Shown in pieces: positions 30,859-59,268 of a DNA stretch of 64,000 bases. Location of the stretch: NCBI GenBank assembly GCA_030295235.1, contig AP026148.1, positions 62,001 to 126,000 on the forward strand, read 5' to 3'. Numbering within the stretch: position 1 is the first letter of the stretch; the number at the start of each line of letters is the position of its first letter. This DNA is from Fistulifera solaris. Lineage: Eukaryota > Bacillariophyta > Bacillariophyceae > Naviculales > Stauroneidaceae. The translations under genes were made by a program, and so were the position numbers. The notes below the pieces were generated by a model that searched no databases, was not told the origin of the DNA, and saw only the letters and a program-made list of their open reading frames with translations.

Positions 30859-31520
30859 GCACGGATTGCCTGACTTGAAACGTTTCCACCTTATATCTTC
30901 CATCCATCCAATGATCCATTCATCTTTTCTTCATTTCAATTTCATGTTACGTTACTAAATAGATTAAGCTGTATTCTAACTCAAAGTGTTATTCGATATG
31001 GTTTGTGTTGTTGTTGTTGTTGCGGTGCATTTATTCATGACTGAAATGCAGTCTGTCCAGAAATTCTGGACCAGGTGAATTTCATTCAAACAGAAAATAT
31101 GCAGTGATCCAGAAATTCTAAACAAGTTGTATTTCATTCAAACAGAAAATCTGCACAGTTCCAGAAATTCTGGAGCAGGTAAATTTCATTCATACAGAAA
31201 ATCTGGGGTCGGTCCACAAATTCTGGACCAGTTGTATTTCATTCATACAGAAAATCGGGGATTGTCCAGAAAGTTTGGACCAGGTGTATATTATTCATAG
31301 AGATACTTGGGGATGGTCCAGAAATTCTGGACCAATTGCTCTTGAGTCTATAGTCTATGGTAAGAATAGAGGCGATGATTTTGGCAACAGTTTCGCTGTG
31401 AATAATAGAGATAATTATCGCAATTGATCTGAAGATAACGACAGGCAACGAAGATAAGTGGTCCAAGAGCAGAGTAACGAGATTTGCAGCATGATTTGTT
31501 TAGACTCTTAAATACAAGAG
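30859..31520. other. Convergent 3' region with a palindromic tandem array
   Basis: Lies between the 3' ends of the beta-propeller gene and the first protease gene. Holds a GTT microsatellite at about 31005-31022 and the 52-base repeat array at 31055-31340. No gene. Confidence 0.6.
31055..31340. repeat. 52-bp tandem repeat with palindromic core, 5.5 copies
   Basis: Units begin with TCCAGAAATTCTGGA, a perfect 15-base palindrome in copies 1 and 6, and continue with CAGGTGAATTTCATTCA and CAGAAAATCTG. Starts are near 31055, 31108, 31160, 31213, 31264 and 31316, so the period is close to 52. Similar cores recur at 58.4-59.2 kb. Confidence 0.8.
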
Positions 31521-33142
31521 CTAAGGTCTCGCTGCGTTCTGTCGCACGACGCGAATACACCCCTGGATGTTGAGGAACCAACAGAGAATTTGATTCCATG
31601 GATTTCCTCCGCTAGGACATGGACAATCATTATCCGCCACATGATCGATCGGCCGACAGCCTACTTGCGATTGCGTCCCTAAACCCGCCCATGTATACAC
31701 TGCATCAAACATATCTTTGCTCATGACAGGACCGACGTTGGCTCCACCAGACCCTCCGGCATGATTTCCCAATGCTATATTCTCTTTAGTTAACAATGCG
31801 CTTCCTGACATGCCTCCAGCAGTATCGCAGTAATATCGCAAGTAATGCGCACCATTCGAGCGAGCTACAAACAGAAAAGACAAGTGACGCGTCTGGTGAG
31901 TTGAAAAACTCACAGTTAGCATTGATCACGCAGCACCGCTTTCCCTTTCTCACCTGGTGGAGAGCATGGCCCAGAAGTCGTCATTTCACCGCGTCTAAAG
32001 TCGTACGGGTAGCCGGTGATGGTAATATCGGCTATTCGAGGGTCAGTGACACCGTTGCTCGAGCTGATGATACTATCGATTGCAACGTAGCCCACAATAT
32101 CTCCTGGCTTTCGGGGGGAGAGAAAAAAGGCTAGAATAAGACGAGGGCGAGGTCCAAAACAAGTTTTTGGGAATCAATGAAAAGGTACGTACGTAAACTT
32201 CATCACAGCCCAAATCCGGGCGATTGATTGGCTTGTAAGTGACCACAGCCATGTCAAAAAATCTGCTTTGCGTCTCTCTATACTCTCCGAAAGCCGTAGC
32301 ATAATCCACTTCCCACATTCCAAACGGTTCGAGATGTTGATTGGTTTCCGAGTCAAAGTATCGCCCAGGCGCAATCCGGGTAATAGGCATAGGTCTTCCT
32401 TCGTTGAAATTCCACACGCAGTGTGCCGCAGTTAAAGCAGAAGTCCGTGAAATCATAGTGGCAGTACAAGAATTGTTGCCCCACCTATAATCGCTGGCAC
32501 CGATGGCTCGAAAAGGGTAGAGAGTCGTATCGGGGACCGCTGAGCGTGTATCGTTCCCTATTATAATCAGGTTTCGGTTTTTGACAATAAACTCATATCC
32601 GTCCGCAAGACCTTTGTATAACATCGTCGGTCCCATTGTATCATTGAGTAGGAATAGCGCGACGCATATTCATAGCCGTCGCTGGTAATTCGTACATAAT
32701 GCCGATCGATGCCCATCTCATCCACTTCGTATTCGTCATCAAAAGCCGTCATATTCTCCAAATTCTCTATCTTTTTGGCGTATCGCGTGCGCTTTGTAAC
32801 GAATCGAAACTCTTCTTCCGCAAATCGGGTAATAGTGGCTTCATCGATGACTTCCGAGTTCATAACGAACGCCGATTCTTCCAAGAGACTGTCACACGGC
32901 CCCAAACTATCCAATTCGATGCCCTGAAAGCCGATGAGTTAGATAAATAGGTATGAAACGCAATCTTCTGTCAGTGCACCTACTTGACACCAGGCCAAAC
33001 ACTCATTCGCGTACGTTAATCCGTCAGATCCGCAGACGGCCGGACCCATGAGGGTCGCATCCAAGCTGCATCCAGCACTACAATTGTAGTCGGCACGAGC
33101 GAGCGTGAAGGAAGCGGCTAGTATTGACCAAGTTCGAATCAT
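31521..33142 (-). CDS. Kazal-V8 peptidase copy 1, one apparent frameshift
   Basis: Four exons: 33142-32984, 32923-32193, 32107-31954, 31864-31521. Signal peptide (WSILAASFTLARA), then a Kazal-type domain with six Cys (CSAGCSLD, PAVCGSDGLTYANEC, WC, GPC). The peptidase domain has the His in LTAAHCVW, the Asp in FDMAVVTYK and the Ser in GGMSGSALL, as in the V8/S1B group of secreted serine peptidases. The C-terminus has the CPCP and ILCWFLNIQGCIR Cys pattern shared with copies 2 and 4. One base is missing near 32635-32645; after it the frame resumes with GPTMLYKG, as in copies 3 and 7. No long homopolymer is there, so the copy may be truly broken. It should be a secreted endopeptidase with a built-in inhibitor domain. 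Confidence 0.82.
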
Positions 33143-34076
33143 GGATTTCGTGTGTGTGTTTGTGTGTGTGTGTTGATTATGAACCAGAGATTTATAAACG
33201 ATTGGATAAGGAAAATGAAGGAATACTTATTTCTTGTCTGTGTTTGTGAAAGAATGAAGACATTTTTTCATTATTTTTTGTTCTCGTGTCGTGTTTTGTC
33301 AAGAATTGGCGACTTTCACTTTTTAGTAAGCCCTCGATATTTTTAGCTAGGACGCATATGTCGCAGACTCTCACAAATCGCCAAAACGATGTCAATCTTG
33401 GGTCGATCACAAAAAATCGGCCAAGCAAGAAGACCAATAAAGAACCAATTCTGATGAGATAGCAATTCAACGATCCGTCATTGCATATCTCCACACGACC
33501 ATGGCGTTGTGGTTAGGGTTGTACCGTGGCTCCTGTGACTTGGAGCAGAGAGGAATGGCAAACGCTAGCTCGGAAGGTCTCTCCGACTTGCAAGCCTCAT
33601 GAGCGTGCCAATAATGTGGAAAGCGCCTGTTGTGAGGTTGGTTTTCTCAAATTATCTCAATTTTTTTTGTTAAGTAACACTTTTCGAAGTTTGGAAACGA
33701 TAAGGGACTGTACTATACAATTGAAAATGAGAGGATGAGGTTGATGTTCAAAGAAGAATTTTATAAAAGACGACGAGGAGTCCTTGACTTGTTGATTCTC
33801 ACGAACAAGCCATCTTGATTCAAAGGACACAGGCCGCTAGTCTTCGGTTGATTTTGCTATCAGTCCTAGAAGAAATGGACTTAATTCACTTCGACGTCGA
33901 CAATCAATGGAGAAAAGAGCCTTTTTAAGCGTCGAAAGAGCGTCCGTTTCTCTGGATAAGCATCTCGTAATAGGGACCAGGATGTTTTTGTTTCAGCACA
34001 TCGCATTCGGATGGTATAACTGCCGTGATGAGAGTCATTCTATTGACTCAAAACAACATTGCTTGCAATGAGACCG
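33143..34076. other. Intergenic between peptidase copies 1 and 2
   Basis: Upstream of copy 1 is a TG-rich microsatellite at 33151-33172, overlapping the likely promoter or leader. The rest shows no gene. Confidence 0.5.
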
Positions 34077-35718
34077 CTACACACGACTTTGAAGTGACGG
34101 CAAACACGCTGCAAGGTTGCGGATCCAGCAACGAACGCGACTTCTTCGATTATTGGTGTATTGCGCGCAAGGACAAAAGGTGGATCGCAACTGGCAATTG
34201 AGAGGTTCTTGGTTCGCAAGTCCGGCACCTTGATAAACAAAATCAAAGTTGATTCGGCTGAATACCACCGCACCGTTCGCGCTGCCAAACCCCATATTGT
34301 GAACACCTAAGATTTGGTTTTCAGTGGTGAGCAGCCCGGTTCCGCTGCTCCCTCCTTCCGTATCACAGTAATGAAGAATGTAGTTTGGACCGTAACTTTG
34401 AGCTTTGACAAGTAACGAAGATTTTGAGCGCCAACAGCAAAGCTAACTAGCAATGAAGAGTTTTGTACGTACGTGGATCTGAGCAACGACCGGACGTGAC
34501 CATCTGTTCGTCGAAATCGTAAGGATAACCTGTTAGAGTCATAGTTTGTAATCGAGTATCGGTTACTGATGTATCAGTTCCTGCAACGAGATCAATTCCC
34601 AAATAGCCGACAATGTCACCCGGCTTATGTATCAGCGAAAGATAGAGAAAGAGTCCAAGTGAGATGAGGCGTTCCATGTAGCCATCCATCAATTGTGCTG
34701 TAAAGGGCCAAGGATACTTACGTAAACTTGGGTACTGTCACGGCAGGTATAGCGTGTTTCGTTGCGTGGCTTGTAAGTTACGACTGCGATATCCGCCGTC
34801 CTGCTCCTATTAGCGATGTATGCTTGCATCACGGTCACGTAGTCGACGTCCCACGTGCCAAAAGGTTCCGCAGTTTTGTCGGGCTGCGTAAGATCGATGT
34901 AACGACCCGGTGCTATCTTTTTCATTGGTCTCCAGGTCTTGGAGCTATAACTGTAGGCACAGTGCCCTGCTGTAAGACCCGATCGGCGCGAGATCATGGT
35001 TGCTGTACATAACGTTGGATTATTGTAATCCACTGCTCCAATGGTGCGATAGGGAAAAACCGAAGTGTTTCCTATCACGGAGCGAGTGTCAGGCCCGATG
35101 ACGTCTAACTTCCTGTGACGAAGATTGGATGAAGTATCTTCGACGACACCCCGATACGGCTGAGTTGATGTCATCTTAGTAGAAGAACTCGCCTTGGCAA
35201 TAAATTTGTAGCCCTCGTGAGTCACACGCACAATACTCTTTGTAGCGGACTCTTGAAGGGGAGAAAATATATTGAATTCATCCTCTGCCGAGCCTTCTTC
35301 AACGATCGGTTCCGTAGAAAACTCGATTTCCTTTGTAACGAAACGAAAGTTCTCTTTCGCAAACCGATTCATGATAGCACGCGTAATGATTTCGGAGTTT
35401 CCAGAGAAATCAGGCATCGCGATTCTATCGGCATCTCCCGAGCATGGCCCAGAGGTGAATTTTCTGACGCCCTGTAGTTGACGGAACAAGTGTTAGGACC
35501 GCTAATAACCTAATAGCACTCATCAGACCACTAACCTGACACGAGGCAACGCATCCGTTGACATACGTAAGCAAGTCTTCTCCGCATACTGGACCTCCCA
35601 TGATAGCGCTATCGAGAGAGCACCCAGCATCGCAGTTGTATTGTGCAACAACGCCGGCAAAACTAAAAGCGAGGATAAGGTATGCTGCAAGTACTAGATT
35701 GTTCGAAAGTTTCAACAT
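34077..35718 (-). CDS. Kazal-V8 peptidase copy 2
   Basis: Four exons: 35718-35536, 35471-34722, 34623-34473, 34402-34077; 469 residues, intact. Signal peptide LAAYLILAFSFAGVVA, then Kazal Cys pattern NCDAGCSLD, GPVCGEDLLTYVNGC, SC, GPC. A pro-like segment includes MNRFAKENFRFVTKEIEF, which recurs in copies 1, 3 and 4. The triad is LTAGHCAY, ADIAVVTYK and GGSSGTGLL; the residue after the catalytic SG pair is Thr, not Ser. The C-terminal Cys tail (CPCAQY, RCWIRNLAACL) is present. All introns sit at the same places and phases as in copies 1 and 4. Expected to be secreted. Confidence 0.9.
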
Positions 35719-36808
35719 GTTAGGCCTTTTTGTTTCGTTTCAAACTTTCTTCTTGAATGAAAATTGTTGGCTTTCTCTTTGCGAGCAAATCTTAGTCCAA
35801 AATTATCAACTGGCGCGTTTTCAAATGCCAATGACATGGTCTCGATAATGAGGACGACAAATACACTTTTTGGTTTTCCGTTGGACTGTCATCACGATTA
35901 GATAGAAAAATTAGTACAGAGAGTCTTACCAAAAACGACGATCCGGTATTCCAACTGCGCTCAATTATTCAAAACTTGCGCTAATTATTGTATTACATAG
36001 AGTGACTAAGCCTAAGTACTTGAAAGCATTCGTCTAAGATAGGCTTTAGATTTGCTTAACAAGGGACTGCAGACACAAAAACAAGAGTGTCATCTACAGA
36101 GTTAATTGTGATGTCTCATCGTCACACAGGCGTCCAATCAGATGCAACCTATTGCCTTTTCGCGCACCTTCAATTTCGCGAACGCAACATGAGAAATGAG
36201 AGAAAGTTCGGTTGTGTTGTTATTCAAGTGATTCAAGAGAGGAAAAGCATTCGACAATCCTCTAATAATGCACTTTGCAGGTCATTTATCTGCAGGATGC
36301 GCTGCTGGCGTGACTTTGGTTGGCGGTAGGATCAATGCGACTTTCATTTCTTTCTGTTAACCAAGTTGAAGCAAGGGCTGATTAATAGAAAACTGGCAGC
36401 CCCACTTGATAAGCAAAACTATCGGAGAGCAAAGCAGAGAAAACGTTTAATCGACCACGACATGCAAGTTGAATTCACTCGAAAAACCCATCTTCGTTAG
36501 AAGTGATCCTGCCTCATCGTTCCACACGTTTCTTCGCATATATCAAGGTCAAAGATTCTGTGCAGTTTAATAGAGAATACGCTTTGCGGGGCCGGAAGCG
36601 ACCCCATCACCCATCAGCGTTCTTTGCTGGCTGTTCATCGAAAAATGGCCGCTGGGTGTTGAATAAACAATGGAACTACATTGTGAAATCGACGTTTTCT
36701 AGTGCAAAGTATTTTTCTTCGTTCGGGTGCGGTTGGTTGAAACGGGCTTAATGATGCAGATTATGAGTTATACACAAACCTCGTTGGTCAGAAGCATGAA
36801 GTTGATAA
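35719..36808. other. Intergenic between peptidase copies 2 and 3
   Basis: 1.1 kb with no supported gene; short plus-strand frames look random. Confidence 0.5.
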
Positions 36809-38366
36809 CTAACGGCCCAGACAAGCACCAAAGTTGCGTAGATTACATATCAGTCGTGCAATTCTTCTACTACCGAACTCTGCACATGTGCAAGTTTGGG
36901 GCGCTTGACTCGTTAGCCCAGCCCAACTGGAAACTATGTCGAAATATTCGGGAGTCAAAACCGTGGCTCCATTGACTCGACCTGGTGCTATAGGATTGTT
37001 ATGCGCTCCATTATGGACGCCCAACACTTTGTTGTCATTCGTCAAAGTAGCGGCGCCACTCATCCCGGGCATAGTGTCACTTTAAAAGTACGTCCATGAG
37101 AAGCCAGACATAACCAATATTGTTTGATCGAACCGCCATAGATCACTTACCATGTGTGATAGATATACTTGGGCTTGGTGGAGAATGCTGTGCGAAGAAA
37201 AAGTCAAAGTCATGTGAGTATAGTCGGAAATGACCAAGTATTCATTCACTTGATACTTACGTGCATTGGGACAGAGCCCTGTTGTGATCATCTTGTGTTT
37301 CATATCATAAGGGTATCCTGTGATGGTCATGTTCGAGAATCGCGCATCAGTGACGTTCGAATTATCTTCTCCTACACGGTCTATTGACAAGTATCCAACA
37401 AATTCCCCAGGGTAGACCGAAAAAATACCTAGAAAACGCCTCCTTCGTTTCTTGAACGTAACTACACCCATGTCATAGATTTCATTGCCTGATTCCTCCC
37501 ATCCCTTAAAATAGGATGTGTAATCAACATCCCACGTGCCGAAAGGCTCCGTGGTATTATCAATCTGCCCCGGATCATAAAAACGACCCGGAGCGAACCG
37601 AGTAACGTTAAAAGTCATTTTGGCCGCTCTATCGTAAAGACAATGCGCCGCGGTTATACCAGAAGTCGGACTTATCATGGTAAGAGTGCACCCGGAATCG
37701 GAGAAATCGAAATCCAACCCACCCATGGTCCGATAGGGAAAGATAGTCGAGTCTGGAACCATCGTCCTCGTGTCTTCCCCAATCACCACTAATTTTCGCT
37801 TGCGAAGACGCGGCTGATTCTCAGCAATACGACCTTCGTAAGAAGGCGTGGGACCTTGGATCTTGGCAAATGACTTGACTTTCGAAATGAACTTGTATCC
37901 CTCACTGGTGACACGTACGGTATCAAATCCATCCGGCGATACAGACGATGAAAACACATTCGAGTTGTGTATGAAATCGCGAATCGGATCCCTTGAAAAA
38001 TCAATCTCTTTCGTGACGAATCGGAAACTTTCTTTCGCAAATCGACTCATAATTTCACGCGTAATTACTTCGGTTTGCCCCGAAAGATCAATCTGTTCGA
38101 GGCGGTCTCCTTCACCCCCACAAGAGCCCGCAGTGAACTTGACGCCCTATACGAACGACACGTTAGTCTCATCAGCGATGAAACTATTCAACGGCAATGT
38201 CACTTACTTGGCAAAACGCGAGACATCCGTTTGCGTAACTTATTCCATCGGATCCGCAAACGGGTTGCCCCATTAGGGCAGGATCGAGACTGCAACCCGC
38301 ATCGCAATTGTATTGTGCCGCTGCAGGAGCGACCCAAAGGATGAGAAGAAGTAAAGCGTTCCACAT
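36809..38366 (-). CDS. Kazal-V8 peptidase copy 3 with changed intron pattern
   Basis: Exons 38366-38208, 38146-37261, 37187-37151, 37079-36809; 450 residues. Signal peptide LLLLILWVAPAAA, Kazal domain NCDAGCSLD, QPVCGSDGISYANGC, FC, GSC. Triad ITAAHCLY, YDMGVVTFK, PGMSGAATL. The intron found after the VY codon pair in copies 1, 2, 4 and 5 is absent here: the coding sequence runs through FKKRRRRFLGIFSVYPGEF. A new 71-base intron (37150-37080) splits the Cys codon of HTCDTMPGMSG, five codons before the catalytic site. The 37-base exon between introns is the smallest in the window. The basic patch KKRRRR replaces the usual Asn/Arg/Cys loop. The last Cys motif (TCTC, LICNLRNFGACL) is kept. Confidence 0.88.
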
Positions 38367-40342
38367 GTTGCCCGTTCCCTTGGAAGATCTCGGTTTTCGA
38401 TTTGGAAAAGCAAAGTCTTTTGGAAATGACAGCACCTGCCGATGCAACGCTGAAGAACATTTCCAACTGAAGTCATTCGGCGGGGCTGGCTCGGAGCAAT
38501 TTCGAGGGCTTCATACAAAACACGTCTAAAAACTTCGTATCATCGTGTCTGTACTTGGGCACGCTATCAAAGAAGTCCGCGAGGACATCAAACCATTTTG
38601 GCAAGACCGGTAAGTACTAAGTACTTATATTTATATTAAACAGGAAACGCGCTAACCGACCATTTCCTATCAATAAAAGTATCAACGGCTGCCAAGTATG
38701 GAGCTGGGAGAGTGAAGCATTTTTTCGCAATGACTTCCTTTCATTTTTTCTGTTTTCAAACTGGATAACAAAGACCTCGTTCTATAAATGGAGCCGTTGC
38801 TAACTATCAAACGGTCGACTCCGAAATCTATGTTCCGAGAAAAAGTAGCCGTAACAACGGAACTCGCATCATGCGTGTTTGTTTGTCGTTGTACAAGGTA
38901 TGTGCAATGTGATGTAATTGATGATGAAGGAAAAAATTGTTTGTGTCATCAAGAGCCGTGGCAGTGAGCAACTCGAAAACGACTATGTAAAGGGCCGACC
39001 ATAATATACCATCGAGGGTTTGAGAGATATTATAGCGACAATTGTACTGGTCAATCGGAAAACCATGTAGATATTTTAGGGGAACGATCTACCATCGCGG
39101 CTGTGAGACACGCAAGAGCCACCACCACCACCACCAAAATAGATTAAGTTTATGTGACTCGAAGCGGTTTGCTAATGTTCTTCAGCGAAAAAGATGTAGC
39201 GGCTTTCGTCCATCTTGTCAAAAACGCCCTGGAGAGCTCAGATTCTTTATCGACCGTGAGGAGGCGTTTACTGCCATCGAATTCTTGATCAATACCCAAC
39301 AGAAAAGGCCCCCAGACATGGATCAAGGATTTGCATTCCAATTCAAAATAGGATGCAGTTGAGCCACTCGCCTTACCGCAACGGCCCTCTGGTTTGATGT
39401 GAAAGTTCTCTTCGATCGTGCTCGTCCATCCTTCATGGTCGGCTAGAGCGTTCATGAATTTTAACAAGATCGACCCAACTGCAGTGAGATTCACGGGAAA
39501 TAGGTACATATCTTCCATTGGAGAGTCGACTACCATGGCCTTGAAACTTGATGATGCAATTTTCATTGTTCGAATAGTCGGGTGCGAAAAATTGTCCCTG
39601 TATTACCTTCTCTTCGGACTGAGTGCGAGTCGAGAAGGCATACGCTACTTCTGCTGTGAGCTGAGCTACGCCGACATTATAAAGATGCTCGATGCAATGA
39701 ATTGCAATTTAAAATTATAGCTGAATGTCTCGATTCATCTAAAAGGATCTCACAAAGATTGTGTTCGACTTGAAGCCCCAATCAGCAAGTCGCAAGAGCC
39801 CTAGTCAGCCCGCTTTGCTTTTCCGAATGAAGACTACGTCGCCAAGCCAGTATTTGACAAAAATGGTGTTGGGAGCAATGCTACCAGAAATAAATGGCTC
39901 TCTAGCCAACATTATTGCCTATTGCTTTTGATTAATTTCTGGCAATATGGCTTTTTTGTCTGAAAGACGACTGAAAGCAAGAGGGATGATAGTGGATCCG
40001 AACCGAAGATTTGGCTTTTTATGCTGATGAGGGATCAGTCACGACCTAGCGATTTGGTGAGATTCAAAACTCTTTGAAGTATACCTCGTTCAACATTCAG
40101 ATTAACCTGCTTCCTAATAGTCGAAATCGCCTGTTAGATAAAGTGTATACTTTTCGCTTTAGTTGCTAAAAGGTCGTCGATAGTTGCACATTGCAAATAC
40201 GGTTCCTAGAGTTGATAGCTCTTCTTTTGTGAAGTTAACGCGCTCATTGCTAATTTGAGTTTAATGTACAATCGCCCGCGATGAGGGAAAGTTGAGGCAG
40301 GGCTTTGAAGGGCATGATACGCAGCAGGATGCAAAGAATTCA
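38367..40342. other. Intergenic between peptidase copies 3 and 4
   Basis: 2 kb. One minus-strand frame at 39150-39566 is listed separately; the rest has no gene. A CCACCACCACCACC stretch is at about 39120-39135. Confidence 0.45.
39150..39566 (-). CDS. Hypothetical protein, weak
   Basis: 138 codons from ATG 39566. No family recognised, no signal peptide or membrane span. The composition is protein-like (for example YLFPVNLTAVGSILLKFMNA), and it could be a small gene or a fragment of an older one. It lies isolated between two peptidase genes. Confidence 0.3.
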   Translation of the reverse strand: MKIASSSFKAMVVDSPMEDMYLFPVNLTAVGSILLKFMNALADHEGWTSTIEENFHIKPEGRCGKASGSTASYFELECKSLIHVWGPFLLGIDQEFDGSKRLLTVDKESELSRAFLTRWTKAATSFSLKNISKPLRVT

Positions 40343-41976
40343 TCAGATTCGGTTCGCGCTTTCCAGTGCCAGTCGCAAACAACCTCTAAAGTTAATAAAC
40401 CAACAGATTGCCCGCTGGGACGGATTGCTTTGTGATGAGCAGGGACACGTGTTTGATGCTGAGCATACGAATGCCTGTTGATTTGCTAGTCCTGCCCAAG
40501 TAAATACGGAATCATACAGTTTGTCCTTCAGAACAGCTCCTCCATTGCGACTAGATACCCAATTTCCATGAGCATGAACACCGACAGCAACATTGTTGGG
40601 GAGTAAGAAGCTACTCCCGCTCATTCCCGCAACCGTGTCGCAAAAATGCCAGATATAGTGCGAACCGCCCGACAAAGCTATCAATCAGAGAAAAAGATGA
40701 GCGTCAGTATAGATTGCAACATTTTTTCTCGTATCTTGTCGCTAATTTTTCCACTTACCTTCGCGAGAACAGGCGTTCGAGGTGACCATCTTCCAAAGTA
40801 GTCGGAAGGATAGCCAGTAACAATGAGAGCGGCCAAGCGCGGATCATTAACGACTGAACTTGTTCCTAAGACTCGATCGATACCAACAAATCCTACTACA
40901 TCGCCCGGCTTTGTAGGGAACGAAGAGCCTAGGTTAGGCCACGGAATTTCAGTGTATTGCGAATCCACATGAATGATACTTACGTAGACGTTTGAGCAAC
41001 CGAGATCGGGACGATTGGATGGCTTAAACGTGACGACAGCCATGTCAAAGTTTCCATCTTTTGAATCTTTGTACTCCCGGAAGGTTGTCGTATAATCCAC
41101 ATCCCACGTTCCATAAGGATCTATCATACTACCAGTCGAAGCATCCACGTAACGTCCTGGAGCCACTTTCATCATCGGAAGCGGTTCGTTGGTACTCGTT
41201 CGCCAAACACAGTGGCCGGCAGTTAATGCTGAACTTCGAGAAATCATTGTTACTGTGCAGACGCTAGTCCCCTTGGTATAGTTATAGTCCGCGGAGCCGA
41301 TGGCGCGAAAGGGAAAAGCGGTCGTATCGGGGACAACACTTCGAGAGTCCGTTCCGATGACAATCAAATTACGTTCACGAAGAAGCTTTCGGTCAACTTG
41401 GCCAGCAAGACCTTCGTTCGCAACACTGGAATTTGGAATGCCAGTCGATGCTGTTGACTCCAAAGGCGCCATAAACTCGTAACCTTCGCTAGTAATACGC
41501 AAAACGTGAGGATGAAGAGGGACGTCGAGGCGATCCACCAAGTCGGATTCTACGACATCTTCGTAATCATCGAGCTGTGTTGCAAATTTGACTCGCTTGG
41601 TCACAAACCGAAAGCTCTCGTGCGCGAATCGATTCATAACATCCATTGTTATCACGTCAGCACTTCCCGGAAAATCAAACCCAGACAATCGGCTTTCATT
41701 CATTCCTTCGCATGACCCGTAATTGAATTTGGTGACGCCCTGTATAACAATCCGATCAACGAACCGTTAGCCTTCTTGTCTGATCAATCACGCATTGCAG
41801 CACGTTTGCGCACTTACTTGACACCACGCCACACAAGCGTTCTGATAAGTGAAGCCATCGTCGTCGCATACAGATGGACCCATGATGCTTCCATCGAGAG
41901 AACATCCTGCGTTACAATCATACTGTGACGCCACACAGGTAAACGAAGACAGAATGAACAAGAGAGTCTTTCGCAT
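40343..41976 (-). CDS. Kazal-V8 peptidase copy 4, one apparent frameshift
   Basis: Exons 41976-41818, 41739-40984, 40908-40759, 40677-40343; about 466 residues. Signal peptide LLFILSSFTCVASQ; Kazal domain DCNAGCSLD, PSVCDDDGFTYQNAC, WC, GSC. Pro-like block MNRFAHESFRFVTKRVKF. Triad LTAGHCVW, FDMAVVTFK, AGMSGSSFL; the residue before the conserved Gly is Ala, not Gly. The second intron (40983-40909) is in frame without a stop, so failure to splice it would add 25 residues rather than end the protein. In exon 3 one base is missing near 40789-40797; beyond it the expected MVTSNACSRE follows in the new frame. The Cys tail (CPCS, ICWFINFRGCL) is present. Confidence 0.82.
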
Positions 41977-42910
41977 TTTGTCTCGTCCAAATTTAGATGA
42001 ACGTCAAGGAAAGCAGTAGAGACGCTAAGGAGTCGAATTATCGATCGGTGGATGATAATGACGAAATTGTTGCTGAGGGAAAGGTCTTTGCTTTTCCGCG
42101 TTGAGACCTTGGCGCGGGCCAAATTTTCTATAATTGGTGATTAGTCTTAATTACCCAAAATTACCCCTTACAAAACTGTAGAGTAATTTCGTTCGCGGTC
42201 TATTAACTTGTTTCGTAAATTGATTATTCTGTAAAAAGTACTTAAAGTATAGTATGTTTCTGTAGTATGGTGTTCGTCTCTATTCTTGTTGATCTCTTGT
42301 TATCCTGTCGTCCGTCATCGGCATTGGACATGGAGGGAGATTTTTGATTTGATGTCAACATGTGCAACGTGCACCTTCCAATCCCAACGGAAATCTATCG
42401 GATGTCGTTTCTTCGGAAGAGAACGAATAAACGTCCATCAGTCACATTCAAAACCTTGTCACCAGGATTGCGAACACCATGCAAACCTCTTTTTTTTTCT
42501 TCCAGGAACTGCAATCCATTAGAGTGGCGTTCGCCATCAATCAGACTGACATTTCAAGATGAGGGCGTTTCTTGCCGATTGCAAGGTCGAAAACAGCAAA
42601 TGCACTTTCTCTCGTGGCGAACTGCGAATTGTCCGATGATGATGACAATGACAACAGAATCAAATCGCTAGAGCTACATTGAAAAAATGCCGAGCTCCAT
42701 TTTCCTCAAGACCGAATTCACCTTCCTGTGAACCGTCTACGGGGAAAAAATATTCCGTAATAGAGAACCAAAGCGACTATGGACGAACACACCAATGCCC
42801 CCTTTTTATGACTCGCAAGGTGCAATTGCAGTTTTAACGAAAACAGGGAACTAAATGAAGAATGGTGACGATATACCTGCATCTTCCTTTTTCCTCATTC
42901 GTATCATCCG

Positions 42911-42958
<48 letters not shown>

Positions 42959-43217
42959 CGACGACCCTCTAGCTTTCAAAAGGTGCAAAAATACTCTTGA
43001 AACAAAGTTGTTTTGTACTGCTTTGTGCAAGTATATAAATGCGATTGAGAACATTTGAATCTTTCCACACTATAGGCGTTCAGACGATATCAAAACATTC
43101 TAGATTTCTTCGATTGCTATGCGAGTTAGTAGGCATCCTTCGGTAAGCTAATAATCGTTTACGCGATAAAGCAGACAAAAAAGTAGATTAATTCGCAGAT
43201 TATTTTTACATCAGTTG
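41977..43217. other. Intergenic between peptidase copies 4 and 5
   Basis: 1.24 kb. Contains a (GAT)n microsatellite at about 42911-42960 that makes artificial poly-Asp and poly-Ser frames. No gene is supported. Confidence 0.55.
42911..42960. repeat. (GAT)n microsatellite
   Basis: About sixteen uninterrupted TGA/GAT triplets lie in a non-coding region. Confidence 0.85.
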
Positions 43218-45464
43218 TCATTTCTTGCCACCTTTACCACTTGAGCTCTTCTTGTAGTGCTTATGGTAATTATCAGAGTCAGAGGCACTACTGTACTTTT
43301 TCTGTTTCTTCTTTTTACTGCTCTTGCCGTTACCTGGATAGGGTTGTAGTACCGGAGCTGCGACTGGACTCGTGGGACTTCTGACGGGTTGGGTGGGAAG
43401 AATGTCGGCAGTCGGGGCCACAAAAGCAGGTGCAGTCACGGGGCTGGCGACGGGCAATGCCTGCGGTACGGCGACAGGGAGCACAACGGGTCTGGGAACG
43501 GGCACGATCTCTGGCACGGGAGCAGGTAACGTAACGGGACTGGCGACGGGCACTGCCTGAGGTACAGGTGCTGGGGCCACAACGGGTCTGGGAACGGGCA
43601 CGATCTCAGGCACGGGAGCAGGTAGCATTACCGGGCTGGCGATGGGTACCACCGGAGGCACGGGAGAGGGAAGCACCACCGGGCTGGATACGGGCACGAT
43701 CTGAGGAACCGGAGCCGGGAGCACAATAGGGCTAATTACTTTTACTGGCTGTGACGCTGGAGCGGGCTGTGGTGCTGCTACTGGTCGAACGATAGGGCTG
43801 ATGACTTTCACTGGTTGAGACGCTGGAGCAGGTATTATTTCACGTGTTGGACCTGTAACTTGAGAAGGGGCTGGTGCCGGCAGAACGATTGGAGACAGTC
43901 CTGGTGAAGGTTGTCTCTGCGGAGTTGAGACGGGTCTCTGAACCGGAGGAGCCACAGGTTGTACAACTGGTGATAATACTTCAGTTCGTGAACACAAGGT
44001 TTGACCTCTCCCATGTCCCGCCCATTCATAGATAGATGCGTACAAGCGCGTCGTCATCATCACAGCCCCATTCACGCTTGATGATGCGGTTTGAACGCCA
44101 TGGGTGTGAACTCCCAGAGCAATATTGCCCTCGACTAAAACCGAGCTCCCAGAATTACCTCCGACGGTGTCACAGTAATGATTGATGTAATTAGGCCTGC
44201 GACTTTCAGGAGCTAGAACGGAAATTGGGAAGTTATTACGTGAGCTGGCAGCGATAGCTAACAAACCGAAGGAATACTATTGACTTACCTCGATCGCATG
44301 GACCGGATGTCGCCATCTGGCGATTATAGTCATACGGATAGCCGGTGATCACCATCGTCGACAAGCGGCTATCCACAACTCGTCCATCTACTTCAGCTGG
44401 ACGATCGAGTCCTACATGCCCTAAGGCATCTCCGGGCTGAGATGGAAAAGAGAGTGAGAGTGAGAACGTAGCCTTGCGTTGGCAAGCGCAAACCCAGAGA
44501 TACTTACGTATAGCTCCTTGCAGGTAGAAAGATTGTTGCGGATACGGGGCTTATAGGTCACAACCGCAATATCGAAATTGGTATGACCAAACTGCTGAAA
44601 GTTTCCAAACAACGAAACATAATCCACTTCCCAAGTTCCAAAGGGTTCCGCTGTCCCGTCTCTTTTCGTGGCGTCACGAAATCTTGCCGGAGCAATCGCA
44701 GTCATATTCATTGGCGCCTTCCTGTTCGTATTCCAGACACAATGCCCAGCCGTCAGTGCCGAGGTGCGGCTGATGAGCGTCAACGTGCAACCTCCTTCTC
44801 CCCACCAATAATCCGCGTTTGCTATAGTACGAAATGGGTATCGAGTTGTATCCGCAACTGGAGTTCTTGAGTCTTGCCCGATCAGGACCAACTCTCGTCT
44901 TTTGCGTGTGCCATCATCCTCGCCGTCGTCTTCCAAGCCGTTTTCGCCCAAAAGTCCCAGTTGTGGCGCAACTGGCTGGAGGAGCGCTTCCTCTTCAAAT
45001 GTTAGTGTCGTTCTGTACTCGTATCCTTCGGGCGTGAACCGATAATTTGGAACAAACTGGTCATCCATTTCCTCCAGAAAATCATCGTCTGTTTCATTAA
45101 TCATTTGCTCCTCGAGCAAGTAGCGGATATCTTCTTCAAAATTAGTCGACGGTAGGCGCTTTCCAACGAAACGATAATCCGAGAAGCGTGTCATGGTACT
45201 CATGGGGATAACTTGTGGCTCCGACGACACGAAGGACTCTTGGAAAGGATCTTCTCCTTCGCAAACACCCAAGCTAGCAACTGTAATGTTCTGGCATACC
45301 GCCAAACATTCGTTTAAATACGTGAGATTGTCTCCTCCACACACAGGTGGACCCATGAGACTAGCATCTAGACTGCAACCGACGTTACAATCATACGTTG
45401 CTTGTGAAGCAACGATTGAAAGAAGGGATGCCAATGAAACGAGATGTAGAAGAGACTCTTTCAT
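43218..45464 (-). CDS. Kazal-V8 peptidase copy 5 with Pro-rich stalk and Lys/Ser tail
   Basis: ATG 45464 (a GTG four codons upstream is in frame but not used). Exons 45464-44508, 44436-44289, 44212-43218; 699 residues. Signal peptide LLHLVSLASLLSIVASQ; Kazal domain DCNVGCSLD, PPVCGGDNLTYLNEC, VC, GVC. Triad LTAGHCVW (His about 241), FDIAVVTYK, GGNSGSSVL. The intron between Kazal and peptidase parts is missing. Instead of the Cys tail the last 260 residues are a repeat of 14-20 residues (LPAPVPEIVPVPRPVV and variants), then a charged end with KKKKQKK, SSASDSD, HKHYKKSSS and GKGGKK. Such a stalk and tail suggest attachment in the cell wall; this is inference. The shared parts place it firmly in the family. 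Confidence 0.9.
43330..43950. repeat. Coding proline-rich repeat array in copy 5
   Basis: Repeated units with GGAACGGGCACGATCTC on the plus strand and related variants encode the stalk of peptidase copy 5. Units of about 42-84 bases are similar to each other, so the array is likely to vary in length between alleles. Confidence 0.75.
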
Positions 45465-45986
45465 GATGCAGTTCACTTGATTTAGCTTGTTCTTTCGATA
45501 ATAATTCCGATTGTTTTGATGTGTTTGATATATTTTTTGGTTTGTGTCTTTATTGCTGGATGTTTAGTTGATAATTCTGTAGAATGATCTGAGAAAGCAT
45601 TTTGAAATTGTGTGGACTTGTAGTCTTACTTTCGCTCCGCCTAACGCTTCATTTGTTCGCCGCTATAAATGTGCATCCGACAATTTGAATAGAAGTTGAT
45701 CTGCAGATACAGTACGTCTCTCAACCGCGAATGTTCTTTTAAAGGGTTAGCGATCGGCATCCTCCGTTGACTACCGCATACGACATCCGTCCGTCCGTTT
45801 GCTCGATTGGAGGGAGGAAGGAGAAAGGAGACACTAATTATTACCGGTACTGGTACTGTACTGGTATGGTCCGTCGCCCGCGTCGTGAACGAAAAGAACA
45901 ACAATAACACAGCAACGATGAAAGGGCCACAACATACTTTGTATTTGACCCTTTCTTTCACTCCTCTTTCAATTCTCGAGACTGCA
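45465..45986. promoter_or_regulatory. Shared promoter region of divergent peptidase copies 5 and 6
   Basis: 522 bases lie between two divergent start codons. A run of GGTACTGGTACTGTACTGGTA-like words at 45843-45870 has internal symmetry and could be an operator or a simple repeat. The two genes could be controlled together; this is inferred from position only. Confidence 0.4.
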
Positions 45987-47472
45987 ATGCCTTCAAGAAC
46001 CTTTCTTTCGCTCTACAGTCATTCAATTTTACTGCTCATCCTCTCTCTGACGCTCTCTAGCAGTCAATCGTCTTCATCTTATGATTGCGAAAACGAGGGA
46101 TGCTCATGGGAGACGGTCCCTCCTGTCTGCGGTGTGAACGGCGTTACCTATGCGAATGAGTGTTTGGCTTATTGTCAAGTGAGTACCAGGTATTTGTGCT
46201 GCTGCCTTTCAAAGCGTCTGTTTCGCTGCTTCTTTCTGTCTCGAATAGAGGATGTTCTGTTGTCAGCACAAATGTTTTTGCAGTCAGTTCTATCTGCACT
46301 TCCTAACTCATTTTCGCTTTTCATCGCAGAATATAGAGATCGCTTTCATCGGTCCTTGTTCCGAAAGCGGCAGTATTGCTTCCACCCCTTATGACGATGG
46401 GATCAATGCAACTATTTCGATCATGCAGCGGTTTCAAAAGGAGAATTTCATGCTGACAGAAAGACGGAATTTAGCTGATCTCGTGCTTCCAGAATACAAT
46501 CCAACATTCCATTCCGAGATGAGGAAAGACGAGATACCTCTCGAACAACAACCCATGTTGTGGAGTCGGTTCACGTCTGATGGTTATGTCTATACGGCGG
46601 TGGTTACAGACGAGAGTAACAAACGGTTTTTACAAGAGTTGCCAACAAATTACGAGTCACATAACAATCGCTCCTTGATTATAATTGGTGCCGATACGCG
46701 AAAGATTGTCACTAACAATCACAATCGCTTGCCTTACTCGCCCATTGTTGAGTTAGATTACGGGTTTGGAAATTCAGAAGGCGGCTGTACCGGGACATTG
46801 ATAGGGAAAAGTTCGGTTTTAACGGCGGCTCATTGTTTGTATAACTTTGGCCGCAAAGAATACACGAATCCCTTACGCATGGCACCTGGTCGATATCGTC
46901 AAGGTACTAGTACAATTGAACCTCATGGACTCTTCGGCTTTCGCTACTCGACTATTTTTAGTGTTTATCAAACGACGGGAGATGGGCGTTACGATCTAGG
47001 CGTCGCTACATACAATGCAGACAGTCAAGGTCGGTTTCCCGGTCAACTCGCAGGTACTCTTTGTTTAACAGAAGCCGCGACACAAAAGCTTACGGCGGAA
47101 ACAATTCTGGCCGGTTATCCGATGGATTTCCCCGACGGAAATCTAGTAGAATCGAGGGGCTGCAAATGGCGTCTTGAGAATGGGATCATTTCACATGACT
47201 GTGATACGACAGGAGGACAAAGCGGAAGTCCTATCGTGTCCTCGATGTCTGAAATGCTGGGACTGCACATCGGATATGATCCCAATGCTCCTACGATCAT
47301 CAACACTGCGCTCGGCTGGAACAATGCTACTTACAGCTCGGTGTACGCGTGGGCTCCCGATGCCAGAAGTTGTCCGGATCGAAGATTTTGTAGCAACTGC
47401 CCTGTCCTTGAGAGATCTTTGATGCGTGCACTGTGTTCTCTGGTCTGCCGGGTGTTCGGTAATGCAGAATGA
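45987..47472 (+). CDS. Kazal-V8 peptidase copy 6, most divergent copy
   Basis: Exons 45987-46178 and 46330-47472; 444 residues. Signal peptide HSILLLILSLTLSSSQ. The Kazal domain has CENEGCSWE, PPVCGVNGVTYANEC, YC, GPC; the expected reactive-site residue is Trp, where all others have Leu. Triad LTAAHCLY (His about 232), YDLGVATYN (Asp about 286), GGQSGSPIV (Ser about 362); GQSGSP is the closest match in the set to classical V8-type enzymes. Only the first of the family introns is kept. The C-terminal Cys region (CPDRRFCSNC, LCSLVCR) is related but rearranged. It is the first plus-strand copy. Confidence 0.9.
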
Positions 47473-47656
47473 AGTTTGAGTTTGCGTTGGTATTCTAAAC
47501 GATCTTTAGATGGAGGAAAGTAACGCACAACAGCAGAGAAACGCCAAGTCCGTGGTTGCTTTATCGCTTGATGAAAGATTATGGATTAAGCTAGATGCAT
47601 CCTAATGTTTGATTTCGAGGGAGAGGATGGTGCAATACGTACTTAACCGGAGCTGA

Positions 47657-48973
47657 TCATGCTAAGTCGCGATCTTTTCGGGTATCCTTTGGCTGCGTCT
47701 TCTCGAGTATCTTGCTGCAAACTTTCCAGGCTTGAACTGATGTTGTGTGTAACGAGCACACGGTTCGTTGCAGTTGCTGCTGTTGTCGAAGAGACTGGTC
47801 ATGCGAATAAGCCATTTGTCGCAACTCATGATGGAGCTTATGCATCTCATGTTGAAGCATCATAATTTGATTTTCTTGACGCTGCAACCGATCTTGTAGC
47901 AAAGTGATTTGGTTTTTCCTGACCATTATGAAATGGAAGATATAATGCGCGAAGCTGAGACTGAAGGAACTCTAATGATTGAGCTTGACCTGGAAACTCA
48001 CCGTTAATTAACGGTCCGAACTCATTCCCGGACGCAATATGACCCTGAGACCCATAGAATGGCTCAGCAATTCCCCCTGGGCAGATGGGTTTGGTTTGGC
48101 ATGCCTCCCGACGGCACAGCGTATCGTTGACTCGTGAACCTTTGTTGCACTGAGATCGGACGAATGGGCACTTCTCCTTGAAGTCTGCTTTTCGGTACAT
48201 CAATGGTTTCCGTAGAGTCTTTGTTCCTTGATTCGCGGTTGACAATCTTTTCTCGGGAACGTATGTCGGCTATCGCTGTCGCCCCGGACGGCTCCTCACC
48301 CGATGAATCCAAGAGATAAATTGTCGTTTTGCGCTTCCGTCGGTTGCTCTCCGTATCGTTCGCCTTTTTCTACTCGAAAACGGCATCTTTGCTTTTCTTC
48401 TTGTCAGTAGTGCTGCTCTCCTGCACATAGCACAAACACATTTGTAGGTCGCGAAGCTGGCACTGAATGACCTCCATTTGTGCTGCCAGATTTGACTCGC
48501 TTCGCCTCCGTTGTTCAAAGGCCCAAATTCATTGAGAGAGAGGCTGCCGAGTCCCGTGATGCTTAAGTTTCCGTCTACATTGTTTTGGTTGGTTATGCCT
48601 CTTAATTGTGGACGGCTGAATCCATGCACGTGGTGCAAGAACTTGAGTAGGTCGTAGTATTGAGATTGAAAGATTTCTAGCTGTTGCACCACACTCGATT
48701 GAAAGCGACTTGCATATGCTTCGGTGTTCAACGAAACAAATCCATTTAGGGGGACACCATATTTGTGAGGCCCACCGATGAATCCTGCTATTCGGAAGCC
48801 TCTGTCCGTGCTGTTTTGGTTAGAAATGCCTCCCAATTGTTTTGCGACTCTCTGTTGATTCAATCCTTGCTCAAAGGAGCCGGATTCTGAACATGGGGTT
48901 GCTGAGCGGATTCCGGATCGTCACCATTGATGGAGGGGTGCGGCTTGCTGTCTTCCCTTCGAGTTAGCGACAT
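47657..48973 (-). pseudogene. Broken coiled-coil repeat gene
   Basis: Reading from ATG 48973 (MSLTRREDSKPH) the frame changes at least three times before a Gln-rich coiled coil ends at about 47657. Pieces that belong together are QLGGISNQN, QLRGITNQN and NEFGPLNNGG, which recurs as NEFGPLING. Each is followed by a helical stretch (QLEIFQSQYYDLLKFL; QMEVIQCQLRDLQMCL; LEFLQSQLRALYL). A basic segment NRRKRKTT lies between. The C-terminal coil is RLQRQENQIMMLQHEMHKLH. Breaks fall near 48880-48910, near 48500, a stop near 48370, and at the T5 run 47913-47917. Some are homopolymer-like, others not. A former DNA-binding or scaffold protein is possible; I do not recognise the family. Confidence 0.5.
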
Positions 48974-50169
48974 CTTTCTCTGATACTTTATCTATTTGGA
49001 TTTTTGGCTTCTTCGGTCGTTGAGATTTGCTTTTACTTTGACAATTATTATCTTCACGGTCTTTTTCATTTGATTCACAATCAAAAATCTGCTTTCGGGC
49101 GCCGAAGAATCTGTGTCCGGTGGCCGAAAATTCTCAATCATTGTCGGACGATTCCTGCAGCTGTACCACGCCGCGCTTCTTTTTGTCGTTATTGATCGCA
49201 TTTATCAGCTTGGGATCAGAAATGACTCGAACACAGCTCTCTTTCTTATTTGTAGTAGTGCAGGGTGCGCTGGACGTATCCATGTTGGCTCTGATGGGTT
49301 TAAAATAGAGCGAAGTGAGCTGTCGTTTTCAATCCAATCACAACACACCAGTAGTGGTGCGGAAACTATAAGTAAGTAGCTGCATGAATTCATACAATTG
49401 TTGCATGGCATGATGCGGAACGAGTATTTCCCGTGGACGCTGAGGCGGGAGTCGCCTTCAAGATGTCGCCGAATGTCATCCATTCCCATCTGTATTGACG
49501 TACCTGGACGCTTGTGCCTTATTCCTAATCATCGTTCTCTGTATCAAAGAGTCTTTCAAATGAGAAAAGATGATTTTTGAGCAATAAAGGATTTACTTGT
49601 ACACGGTCGAGTGCTCGTCGTGAAGAAAAATGAATGATGACGATGATGATGATAATGATGATGATAATAAAATGATGATAATAATGATGATGAGAGATCC
49701 TCGCATCTGACGAAAGAAGGGCGAAACGATTGTATCCCGTTTACGCAAACTCGTGTTTAAATGAACTCGGTGCGACGGTCATTTGCTAGGATGTGACACA
49801 CACACTGTTATTGTACGCGAAAAACTTAGACGTGGATACCGAAAGCCCATCAATACCGTTTGGGACTCTTGCTCCCTACTCGGTACTGGAAAATTGAAGT
49901 TTGACAAAGAAATAGTACTAAGAATTTAGAAACGATGCTGTTTCCGTCACAGGAGGCAGTACCGATACTTGTAGTTGTCGTGCGAATTTGTCTTTCAAAG
50001 TCCGAAATTTTGAAGTCAACGGTCACATCGCGCTGACAAGGGCACAAGCAACGGCGCACTTCGTATGCGGCAACTAAAACGAAAAAGTCACCACGGAAAA
50101 AAAGAAAGCACAACAACAATAACGACCGAGAGCCTCGCAGTGCTTTAAATAAACACTTCCACAATCAAC
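48974..50169. other. Intergenic upstream of peptidase copy 7
   Basis: 1.2 kb with an (ATG/ATA)n microsatellite at about 49630-49695. Short frames in both directions at 49000-49490 are overlapping and unsupported. Confidence 0.5.
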
Positions 50170-51700
50170 ATGACTTGTTGTTCGTTTATCAGTATATCAA
50201 TAGCTATAATATCAGCGAGTCTGTTCGCACCGAGCTGTCTCGTTGTGGTCGTTACGGCACAAGAAGTTCAACAACCGACCTACGATTGTCGAACAGGATG
50301 TAGTTTAGATGCCAACATCAATGGACCTCCCGTTTGCGGCATCGATCAACTGACTTATTTAAATGAATGCTTAGCGGTTTGTCAGAATGTGGCGATCGTA
50401 CATTACGGTCCCTGCGATCAGGATGGTTCGCTTTCCGAAAGTGAGCTCTCCACCGATTCGGAGGTAGTTACTATGGAACTCATGACACGTTTCATATCAC
50501 GAGGATATCGTTTCGTGTCAAAAAACACCAGATTTCTTAGTCAACCAGAGAATACAGAAGAGTCGGTTGTTGTAAACGAGGCCGAAAGCGCGACTGTTAG
50601 GGTTGTGGAAGACATTGAGCCGTATTTTGTTCTATTCACTCCCGATGGATATGAATACGCCTATCGTACCACTGACTCGTTGCCTTCGTATCCTGGACCG
50701 ACACCGCTGTATATGGGCATGCAGCAGCTGCGGCGACGTTACCTAGCTATCATCGGGGCCGACACCCGCACTGCCATTTCAAATACCCAAGCCTATCCGT
50801 ATCGGACGATCGGCGAGGCCGACTTTGGAACGCTCGAAGGCGGCTGCACTTTAACCATGATTTCGCGGAATGCGGCTATCACAGCTGGGCACTGTGTCTA
50901 CAATTACCAGAACAAAGTTCCTATTCAAATGAAGCGCATTGCGCCGGGAAGGTATAGAGACAGTTCCGGTAACACGGTCGAACCATTCGGTACCTGGGAA
51001 GTTGAAACTATGCAAACCTTTGGGCAATTCAAATCCACGGGAAACATGACGTTCGATATGGCAGTGGTGACCTTCCAACCAGAGACACGTGACAACATGC
51101 AGAACTGCCCTTATGTGTATCCTGGAGACGTTGTGGGGTTTTTGTCATTAGATAGAGCGCAAACGAGCGGAGGACGCATCAGTGATAGTCGACTGGCGTC
51201 TTCCACGATTACCGGATATCCTGCAGACTTTCCGAACGGCGTCATGGCAACTTCAGGGACCTGCTCCAAAGGTAAGTTTTATGTGATTCGACTCAGTTGC
51301 GGCGTGGCTCTACGAACCGTTACCCTCACTCTTTGCATTTCCCAAAGCATGGCATTCTAATCATGAACAATTCGCCTACCATTACTGCGATACTTTCGGC
51401 GGGAACTCGGGCTCAGCCGTCATTACGAGCGGAAACGTCGTAATAGGAGAACATGCTTATGGTTTCTACGACAACAATAACGTCGCGTTGAATAACGGAG
51501 CCGTTATGCTAACAGGTCAACTCTACGACTCGGTTTATGATTGGGCTGGCTTGGGAATTTCACAGGAAGCTTGTGGATTCATCGCAGGACCAGAACCTAG
51601 TGCTGATTGTCTGTGTACTCAATTTGAGGACCGATGGTTTCTTCAAATCGTGTGCTTCATTTTGAATCGCGACACATGTTTCCGGAGAAACGCCAACTAG
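50170..51700 (+). CDS. Kazal-V8 peptidase copy 7
   Basis: Exons 50170-51271 and 51348-51700; 484 residues, intact. Signal peptide with a hydrophobic core SIAIISASLFAPSCLVVVV. Kazal domain DCRTGCSLD, PPVCGIDQLTYLNEC, VC, GPC. Block MTRFISRGYRFVSKN corresponds to the pro-like block of the others. Triad ITAGHCVY (His 241), FDMAVVTFQ (Asp 296), GGNSGSAVI (Ser 388). Only the last family intron (51272-51347) is kept; the first two are absent without a scar, for example YVYPGDVVGF is continuous. The C-terminal Cys tail is complete (CLCTQF, VCFILNRDTCFRR). The separate position, 2.7 kb beyond copy 6 and past a broken gene, suggests an older duplication or an insertion between them. Confidence 0.92.
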
Positions 51701-58235: not shown

Positions 58236-59268
58236 AGTCTACGGTAACGGTAATTACTATATCCTACCAGAACGATCTAGCTCAACAACTTTGAAAAAAA
58301 AAACAAGAAAGCATCGGTAACTTTGTGACATGTATCGAGAAATAGATCAACTGTTTTTGTTGATGGAAAAACGAAATTCACTGCCTTCAAAATTTCTAGA
58401 ACGTACACAGAGTTCCCGCTTTCCAAACACGCCCGCTCCAGAATATCTGGAAATGACAAAAATTTCTGTATGAACAAGTACGTTTGCTGTAAGATGAAAT
58501 ATTCCCTAACACGGAATTTCTGTAAGATCAAACAACTTTTTCCAGATTTTCTGTAAATAGCGGAGAATTTCTCTGTGATCGCCTACACATACACCTATTC
58601 CAGAATTTTTGTATGACAGCAAAAACAAAAAAAATCCAGAATGCCAAAACGGTTTCAATGCCAAGACGGTTTCCCCCTCATTGGGAAACGGGCTCTGGAC
58701 TTGCCCCTACTAGCACTAGAGCTCTAGAACCAGAGCCTACTCAGCGAAGTGCCAGATTGGAATATATATGACAAAATGAAACGCAAAATGGAAAATTCAG
58801 TCGAATGTCAAAATTATATTCTGACTTAATAGGAAATTAGGAATAAGAATTTAAAAACCGAAAGTAATTGTTATTCCAGATTTTCTGGAACGCGTCCACA
58901 GAATCTCAGTATGATTGCAAACAACCTCTCCAGAATTTCTAATCCTGCCGCCGAATTTCTGTATGATCGCAACCACCGATGATTGCAGAATTTCTGGAAT
59001 AGGAACAGAGTTTTCCAGATTTTCGGGGAAGCCTACACAGAATCTCGGTATGATTGCAAACGCCGATTCCAGAATTTCTGTAACTTCAACAGAACTTTTG
59101 TTTGACAGCAAAACTGATTTCCAGATTCTCTGAAACGCGTTTACAGAATCTCGGTAGGAATGCCAACATTGAGTCCAGAATTTCTGTACCTGCTGCTGAA
59201 TTTCTGTATGCTCGCAACCATCGAATTTCTGGAACCTTCCTTTTTGTCTGCCGCTCTCGACGATTTGA
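58236..59268. repeat. Irregular array of CAGAATTTCTG-type palindromic repeats
   Basis: Between about 58390 and 59240 some twenty copies of a word like CCAGAATTTCTGG or CAGAATTTCTGTATGA occur, with linkers such as TGATTGCAAAC and GATCGCAACCA. The repeats yield open frames on both strands (for example 58851-59324 minus) that I take as artefacts. The core resembles that of the 31-kb array, but the unit length is less regular. A gap without repeats covers about 58620-58870. Confidence 0.7.

Follow-up and report, generated by a model that had tools for sequence, protein, structure and literature searches.

The stretch of Fistulifera solaris DNA analysed here, hereafter the window (64,000 nucleotides of contig AP026148.1, which is C26 of genome G000, 51.7 Mb), carries at 31521-51700 seven multi-exon genes, A-E on the minus and F and G on the plus strand, in which a Kazal-type domain and a V8-like serine peptidase are joined in one chain. 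The introns are of the GT-AG type and span 60-151 nt. B, C, E, F and G run uninterrupted from ATG to stop after splicing, and the B and C proteins match FisN_9Lh370 (P0007) and FisN_9Lh369 (P0006), respectively, in every letter.

31521..33142, minus strand: gene A, 4 exons (33142-32984, 32923-32193, 32107-31954, 31864-31521), exon 2 interrupted by one frame break; open homoeolog of 462 aa
34077..35718, minus strand: gene B, 4 exons, 469 aa
36809..38366, minus strand: gene C, 4 exons, 450 aa
40343..41976, minus strand: gene D, 4 exons, the third interrupted close to its end by one frame break; open homoeolog of 465 aa (P0060)
43218..45464, minus strand: gene E, 3 exons, 699 aa, with a long C-terminal extension
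45987..47472, plus strand: gene F, 2 exons, 444 aa, diverging most from the other copies (alignment judged by eye)
50170..51700, plus strand: gene G, 2 exons, 484 aa

The syntenic contig C25 is the homoeolog of C26, with 81-88% identity across the principal aligned segment of every gene, as expected from the allopolyploid genome described in a passage of PMC5935921. A genome-wide search with the relative P0005 returned 38 matching stretches, which comprise the seven C25/C26 pairs, an eighth on C27/C29 and a single weak match on C1. All seven window genes display six cysteines with Kazal spacing and motif, the middle block MxRFxxExFRFVTK, and the His, Asp and Ser triad motifs, with A and D read in two frames. 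The cluster of seven Kazal/V8-like fusions proposed in a preliminary description of the locus is thus real, corrected for single frame breaks in A and D, while the signal peptide assigned to every copy stands as a hydrophobic N-terminus, judged by eye rather than with a predictor.

The Kazal domains, with cysteines C1-C6, are located as follows:

32894..33082, minus strand: Kazal of A, C1-C6, split by an intron; PF07648 and PF00050 above cut-off in genome searches
35442..35634, minus strand: Kazal of B; Pfam score under cut-off
38120..38306, minus strand: Kazal of C; PF00050 above cut-off
41710..41916, minus strand: Kazal of D; by cysteine pattern
45261..45389, minus strand: Kazal of E; Pfam score under cut-off
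46086..46359, plus strand: Kazal of F, split by an intron, with a C2-C3 gap of 8 and Trp at C2+2; PF07648 and PF00050 above cut-off
50287..50415, plus strand: Kazal of G; Kazal_1 above cut-off in the genome search, and structure comparison

The splitting intron lies right after the Cys5-Gln pair in A-D and F, and is absent from E and G. A Pfam scan of five of the seven window proteins bore out the expected domains in part: Trypsin or Trypsin_2 exceeded the curated cut-off in four of the five, with C below both (15.5 vs 20.6 and 22.9 vs 27.6), and Kazal did so in C and F, with B, E and G below. In a six-frame genome search, Kazal_1 was above cut-off for A, C, F and G, and below for E. A misfit to the Kazal fold had been named as grounds for rejecting the assignment; structure comparison supports the fold, weakly in score, with 40-45 residues aligned at a root-mean-square deviation of 1.5-4.4 in the first five rows, and also returns follistatin-type rows.

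The peptidase part adopts a chymotrypsin fold closest to glutamyl endopeptidases, which upholds the earlier placement in the V8/S1B group, S1B being the label for the bacterial V8-like glutamyl endopeptidases. The catalytic motifs of G exemplify the set:

51398..51415, plus strand: catalytic Ser motif GGNSGS of G, with the His motif at 50881-50895 and the Asp motif at 51052-51066

Thr at S-5 (Thr190) and His at S+15 (His213), both residues of the S1 pocket, are found in 9/9 open F. solaris proteins. Among the closest known systems are the bacterial V8-like glutamyl endopeptidases BIGEP (1p3c), V8 (1qy6/1wcz) and Esp (4jcn), to which the F. solaris proteins add an N-terminal Kazal domain, an R-x-L site, and a C-terminal Cys tail or Pro-rich extension.

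The R-x-L triplet stands at the domain border in 7/7 window genes. The predicted maturation sites, with slashes for the predicted cut, are given below together with the propeptide block of G:

50482..50523, plus strand: middle block of the G propeptide, MTRFISRGYRFVSK
32550..32576, minus strand: predicted maturation site of A, R-N-L / IIIGND
35094..35114, minus strand: predicted maturation site of B, R-K-L / DVIG, near residues 176-187 of the protein
37778..37798, minus strand: predicted maturation site of C, R-K-L / VVIG
41353..41373, minus strand: predicted maturation site of D, R-N-L / IVIG
44877..44897, minus strand: predicted maturation site of E, R-E-L / VLIG
46669..46689, plus strand: predicted maturation site of F, R-S-L / IIIG
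50737..50757, plus strand: predicted maturation site of G, R-Y-L / AIIG

Mature residue 1 of B falls directly after R-K-L when the 1p3c alignment is extrapolated over three residues, and a mature N-terminus after R-x-L is in line with the sequence alignment of G, whose first position is mature residue 2. In the predicted model of B (49 sequences; predicted local distance difference test, pLDDT, 85.6; predicted template modelling score 0.84), residues 176-187 around R-x-L form the sole segment with pLDDT below 50. The triplet occupies positions -3 to -1 in 28 of 36 family proteins (13 with a complete Kazal pattern, the rest mostly fragments, and several of them close kin rather than independent), versus none of the 64 other relatives with a readable site (97 in total, 33 unreadable there; one of the 64 has R-x-L further upstream). 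Arg at -3 is present in 33/36 versus 11/64, and elsewhere in the family proteins R-x-L accounts for 0.31% of positions. Glu precedes the site in 44/64 of the database set, which would suit self-cleavage, a feature that is not shared by the GTDB loci (2/20). RXL is a diatom processing motif according to passages in PMC4557024, PMC5525289 and PMC9650480, and the responsible protease is called yet unknown in the second of these. The earlier idea of a propeptide and timed zymogen is supported, as judged from the sequence, with R-x-L placed right before the predicted mature N-terminus.

We favor, with modest confidence, that A-G encode secreted V8/Bacillus-type (S1B) glutamyl-endopeptidase zymogens, with a predicted cut at R-x-L and the Kazal domain aimed elsewhere. 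The chain would then run from a hydrophobic N-terminus through the Kazal domain and the propeptide with MxRFxxExFRFVTK to a floppy linker ending in Arg-x-Leu, followed by the peptidase, the mature N-terminus of which would be the residue directly after that Leu. As the new N-terminus completes S1 in this type of enzyme, the peptidase should stay inactive until R-x-L is cut. A different protease would make this cut, for which the RXL precursor endoprotease is a plausible candidate in a diatom. The same cut would free the Kazal-propeptide half, the propeptide having no Cys tether. The domain order, the fold, the conserved R-x-L and its placement, the S1 residues and the purifying selection are observed here; cleavage, activity on Glu and the target of the Kazal domain are predictions drawn from them.

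Several observations weigh against this interpretation. The exact R-x-L at -3 to -1 is missing from 8/36 family proteins, the eighth F. solaris pair (L016, L017) does not have it at the exact place, and in the green-alga protein P0148 and in P0134-P0138 it is found either at the site or shifted from it by a single residue; its presence in non-diatom relatives leaves room for a cutting enzyme other than the RXL protease of diatoms. Cleavage one position later, after R-x-L-x, would fit as well. The S+15 His is missing from P0071, P0074, P0134-P0137 and P0148, and is displaced in P0070 and P0138, by an indel or a single position, so Glu specificity is not claimable family-wide; His213 alone is in any case no proof of Glu preference, as stated in a section of PMC5508998. 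The C2-C3 gap of the Kazal domain is 11 residues in six of the seven window copies versus 7 in P0071 and P0134-P0137, and the loop may hence not be canonical. Glu precedes the site in 44/64 of the database set, which would suit self-cleavage, a feature that is not shared by the GTDB loci (2/20).

The frame breaks raise the question whether the genes are still in use. A single break lies in exon 2 of A, between the middle block and R-x-L, and another close to the end of exon 3 in D; the homoeologs of both are open, and those of B, E and F on the other contig have one break each. One could regard the cluster as a decaying tandem array with several dead copies and a fusion without current use, as these breaks would suggest. 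Nonetheless, 9/14 genes are open as assembled and each of the seven pairs keeps at least one open member. Moreover, every break (A, B, E, F, D) is one frame shift with the downstream part still readable, which fits consensus errors, and in the part of A beyond its break the ratio of nonsynonymous to synonymous substitution rates (dN/dS) is 0.06, pointing to a mistake in the assembly or a break of very recent origin. Decay is accordingly most improbable.

Nei-Gojobori comparison between homoeologs, with domain pieces treated separately, yielded dN/dS of 0.05 for Kazal (281 codons, six of seven pairs; F omitted, its homoeolog breaking within Kazal), 0.15 for the propeptide (744 codons, seven pairs; A partial) and 0.10 for the peptidase (1736 codons, seven pairs; B and D truncated ahead of their breaks, E minus its tail). 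The Kazal domain is the most constrained part of the chain and, judged by selection, the cluster is functional. All genomic Kazal matches, 10 for Kazal_1 (E<=0.1) and 5 for Kazal_2 (E<=0.001), are confined to the C25/C26 clusters; this confinement and dN/dS well under 1 in all domains indicate more than chance. Arms-race inhibitors have a variable reactive loop, unlike the constrained Kazal of these fusions.

What the Kazal domain may bind was assessed in 23 tabulated proteins (9 open F. solaris and 14 database), 21 of which have a complete domain. The P1 residue, which we take to be C2+2 by cysteine register with OMTKY3, is Leu in 19/21 (Met in P0005 and Trp in F), and in 11/12 when F. solaris is left out; in the controls Leu is found in 4/12 domains of the Besnoitia multi-Kazal protein P0139 and 0/4 of P0176, counted by pattern, which may overlook domains. 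The Kazal domain shares the six Cys, the VCG.D..TY motif and the fold with classical inhibitors (OMTKY3, LDTI, infestin, SPINK1), from which the window copies differ by the C2-C3 gap of 11 or 8, the almost fixed Leu and the fusion to a peptidase.

Self-inhibition was suggested in the preliminary description, with the Kazal loop lodged in the active site of its own chain until the linker is cut. The inhibitor and the peptidase do share one chain, and the former is under the strongest constraint. Additionally, the C2+3 residue is Asp or Glu in 9/9 open F. solaris Kazals and could be P1 if the longer loop shifts the scissile bond by one. Against this, an acidic residue at C2+3 is a common P1', and the hydrophobic Leu at P1 contrasts with the Glu-type Thr190/His213 pocket; a conserved Leu should not fit the enzyme's own Glu pocket. 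The Kazal domain also lies beyond the R-x-L site, with no cysteine in between in 21/21 proteins that could tether it. Both Leu and R-x-L are kept in P0071, P0134-P0137 and P0148 (R-x-L shifted by one in the last), the peptidases of which do not have the S+15 His, and Leu thus tracks the activation site rather than the S1 pocket. V8-type zymogens are furthermore already held inactive by an unformed S1, as described in part of PMC5508998. We regard self-inhibition as distinctly unlikely.

More probably, the Kazal domain holds back Leu-directed serine proteases, whether the activator or those of microbes, or else acts as a binding module. In the former case it could be a brake on the activator, with the Leu at P1 mimicking that of R-x-L in an inhibitor of the switching-on protease that is released on the cut, a reading based on the Leu that goes with the activation site. 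This is unlikely; if true, the R-x-L endoprotease would be a serine protease and these Kazals natural baits for finding it. Leu may alternatively be conserved for structural reasons. A tentative possibility is that the Kazal is a non-inhibitory extracellular module for anchoring, matrix or partner binding or folding, as proposed in HtrA1 or follistatin. A Kazal upstream of a serine protease has precedent (in a passage of PMC5740065), and the follistatin-type rows, the altered C2-C3 spacing, the conserved rather than fast-changing loop and the loss of Cys3 in the L016 and L017 Kazals, and of Cys6 in the latter, would be congruent with such a role; Leu at C2+2 from diatoms to a green alga, however, exceeds what scaffolding alone would seem to need.

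HtrA1 (IGFBP-Kazal-trypsin-PDZ) likewise has a Kazal-type motif N-terminal to a secreted trypsin-like domain, as presented in PMC5740065 in part, and the earlier statement that no described family has this order was too strong. The window proteins differ by being nearest to glutamyl endopeptidases and by a propeptide with a conserved cleavage-type site; PDZ was not matched at E<=1 in the five window proteins scanned. Complement factor I is an animal protein with a Kazal-like domain upstream of a serine protease, plus other domains, and one structural match of the Kazal part is to an entry with factor I (the chain probably being factor I itself), which weakens that statement further. Secretion and an R-x-L at the domain border are shared with RXL-processed diatom precursors (silaffins, cingulins, silacidins and frustulins, from a section of PMC4557024); the window genes are enzyme precursors, not biosilica proteins, and R-x-L is also found in their non-diatom relatives. 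The kind of peptidase is known already; the novelty lies in combining an N-terminal Kazal and an R-x-L switch with an S1B zymogen, and no paper on this combination was found in the literature searched.

Database entries of relatives are named hypothetical, serine protease, V8-like or Kazal-like, and fusions occur in P0005, P0065, P0069-P0071, P0073 and others. In the eighth F. solaris pair, L016 (C27) and L017 (C29), the upstream exon is Kazal-like. P0071, P0135, P0136 and P0138 have a Ricin_B lectin added after Kazal, propeptide and peptidase, the first three being among those without the S+15 His. P0148, from a metagenome-assembled genome of the green alga Monoraphidium minutum, has the same architecture, which hints at a wide or transferred distribution, or at contamination. 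Its alignment with P0005 covers the Kazal, the middle block and the peptidase (25% over 456 columns), and that with B the peptidase and Kazal pieces only. No other diatom is named among the matches of the three protein searches, in which about a quarter of proteins can be expected to carry a name.

If correct, the favored zymogen interpretation would add to the V8-like peptidases an algal, eukaryotic branch that has a switch of its own. Activity expected only after the cut would offer an enzyme-based read-out for the diatom R-x-L processing protease, and Kazal fragments are possible baits for the protease they bind. The seven paralogs are kept in both subgenomes of an allodiploid, pointing to an extracellular role that may lie in nutrition, defence or wall turnover.

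The C-termini vary. A C-x-C...C...C tail is present in 7/9 open F. solaris proteins (B, C, G and the A, C, D and G homoeologs) and by pattern in 11/36 database family proteins, partly the same ones; in B, C and G (34077-51700) it has no Pfam match. E instead ends in a repeat and tail that, among the seven pairs, are seen in this one only:

43221..43973, minus strand: Pro-rich repeat (period 48/96 bp) and Lys/Ser tail of E

The tail comprises 37 residues, with 13 Lys and 9 Ser, and is reminiscent of the Lys clusters by which silaffins are directed to silica (in a passage of PMC9650480). Together, the repeat and tail suggest that E may be a wall-anchored protease.

Adjoining the array, a Beta_propel (PF09826) protein is encoded at 28867-30858 (265.7 bits), and a 52-bp tandem repeat of 5.4 copies marks the array edge at 31055-31334. 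A second array of 52-bp period is located at 59037-59188, and a transglutaminase-like (Transglut_core2) protein at 59372-60616.

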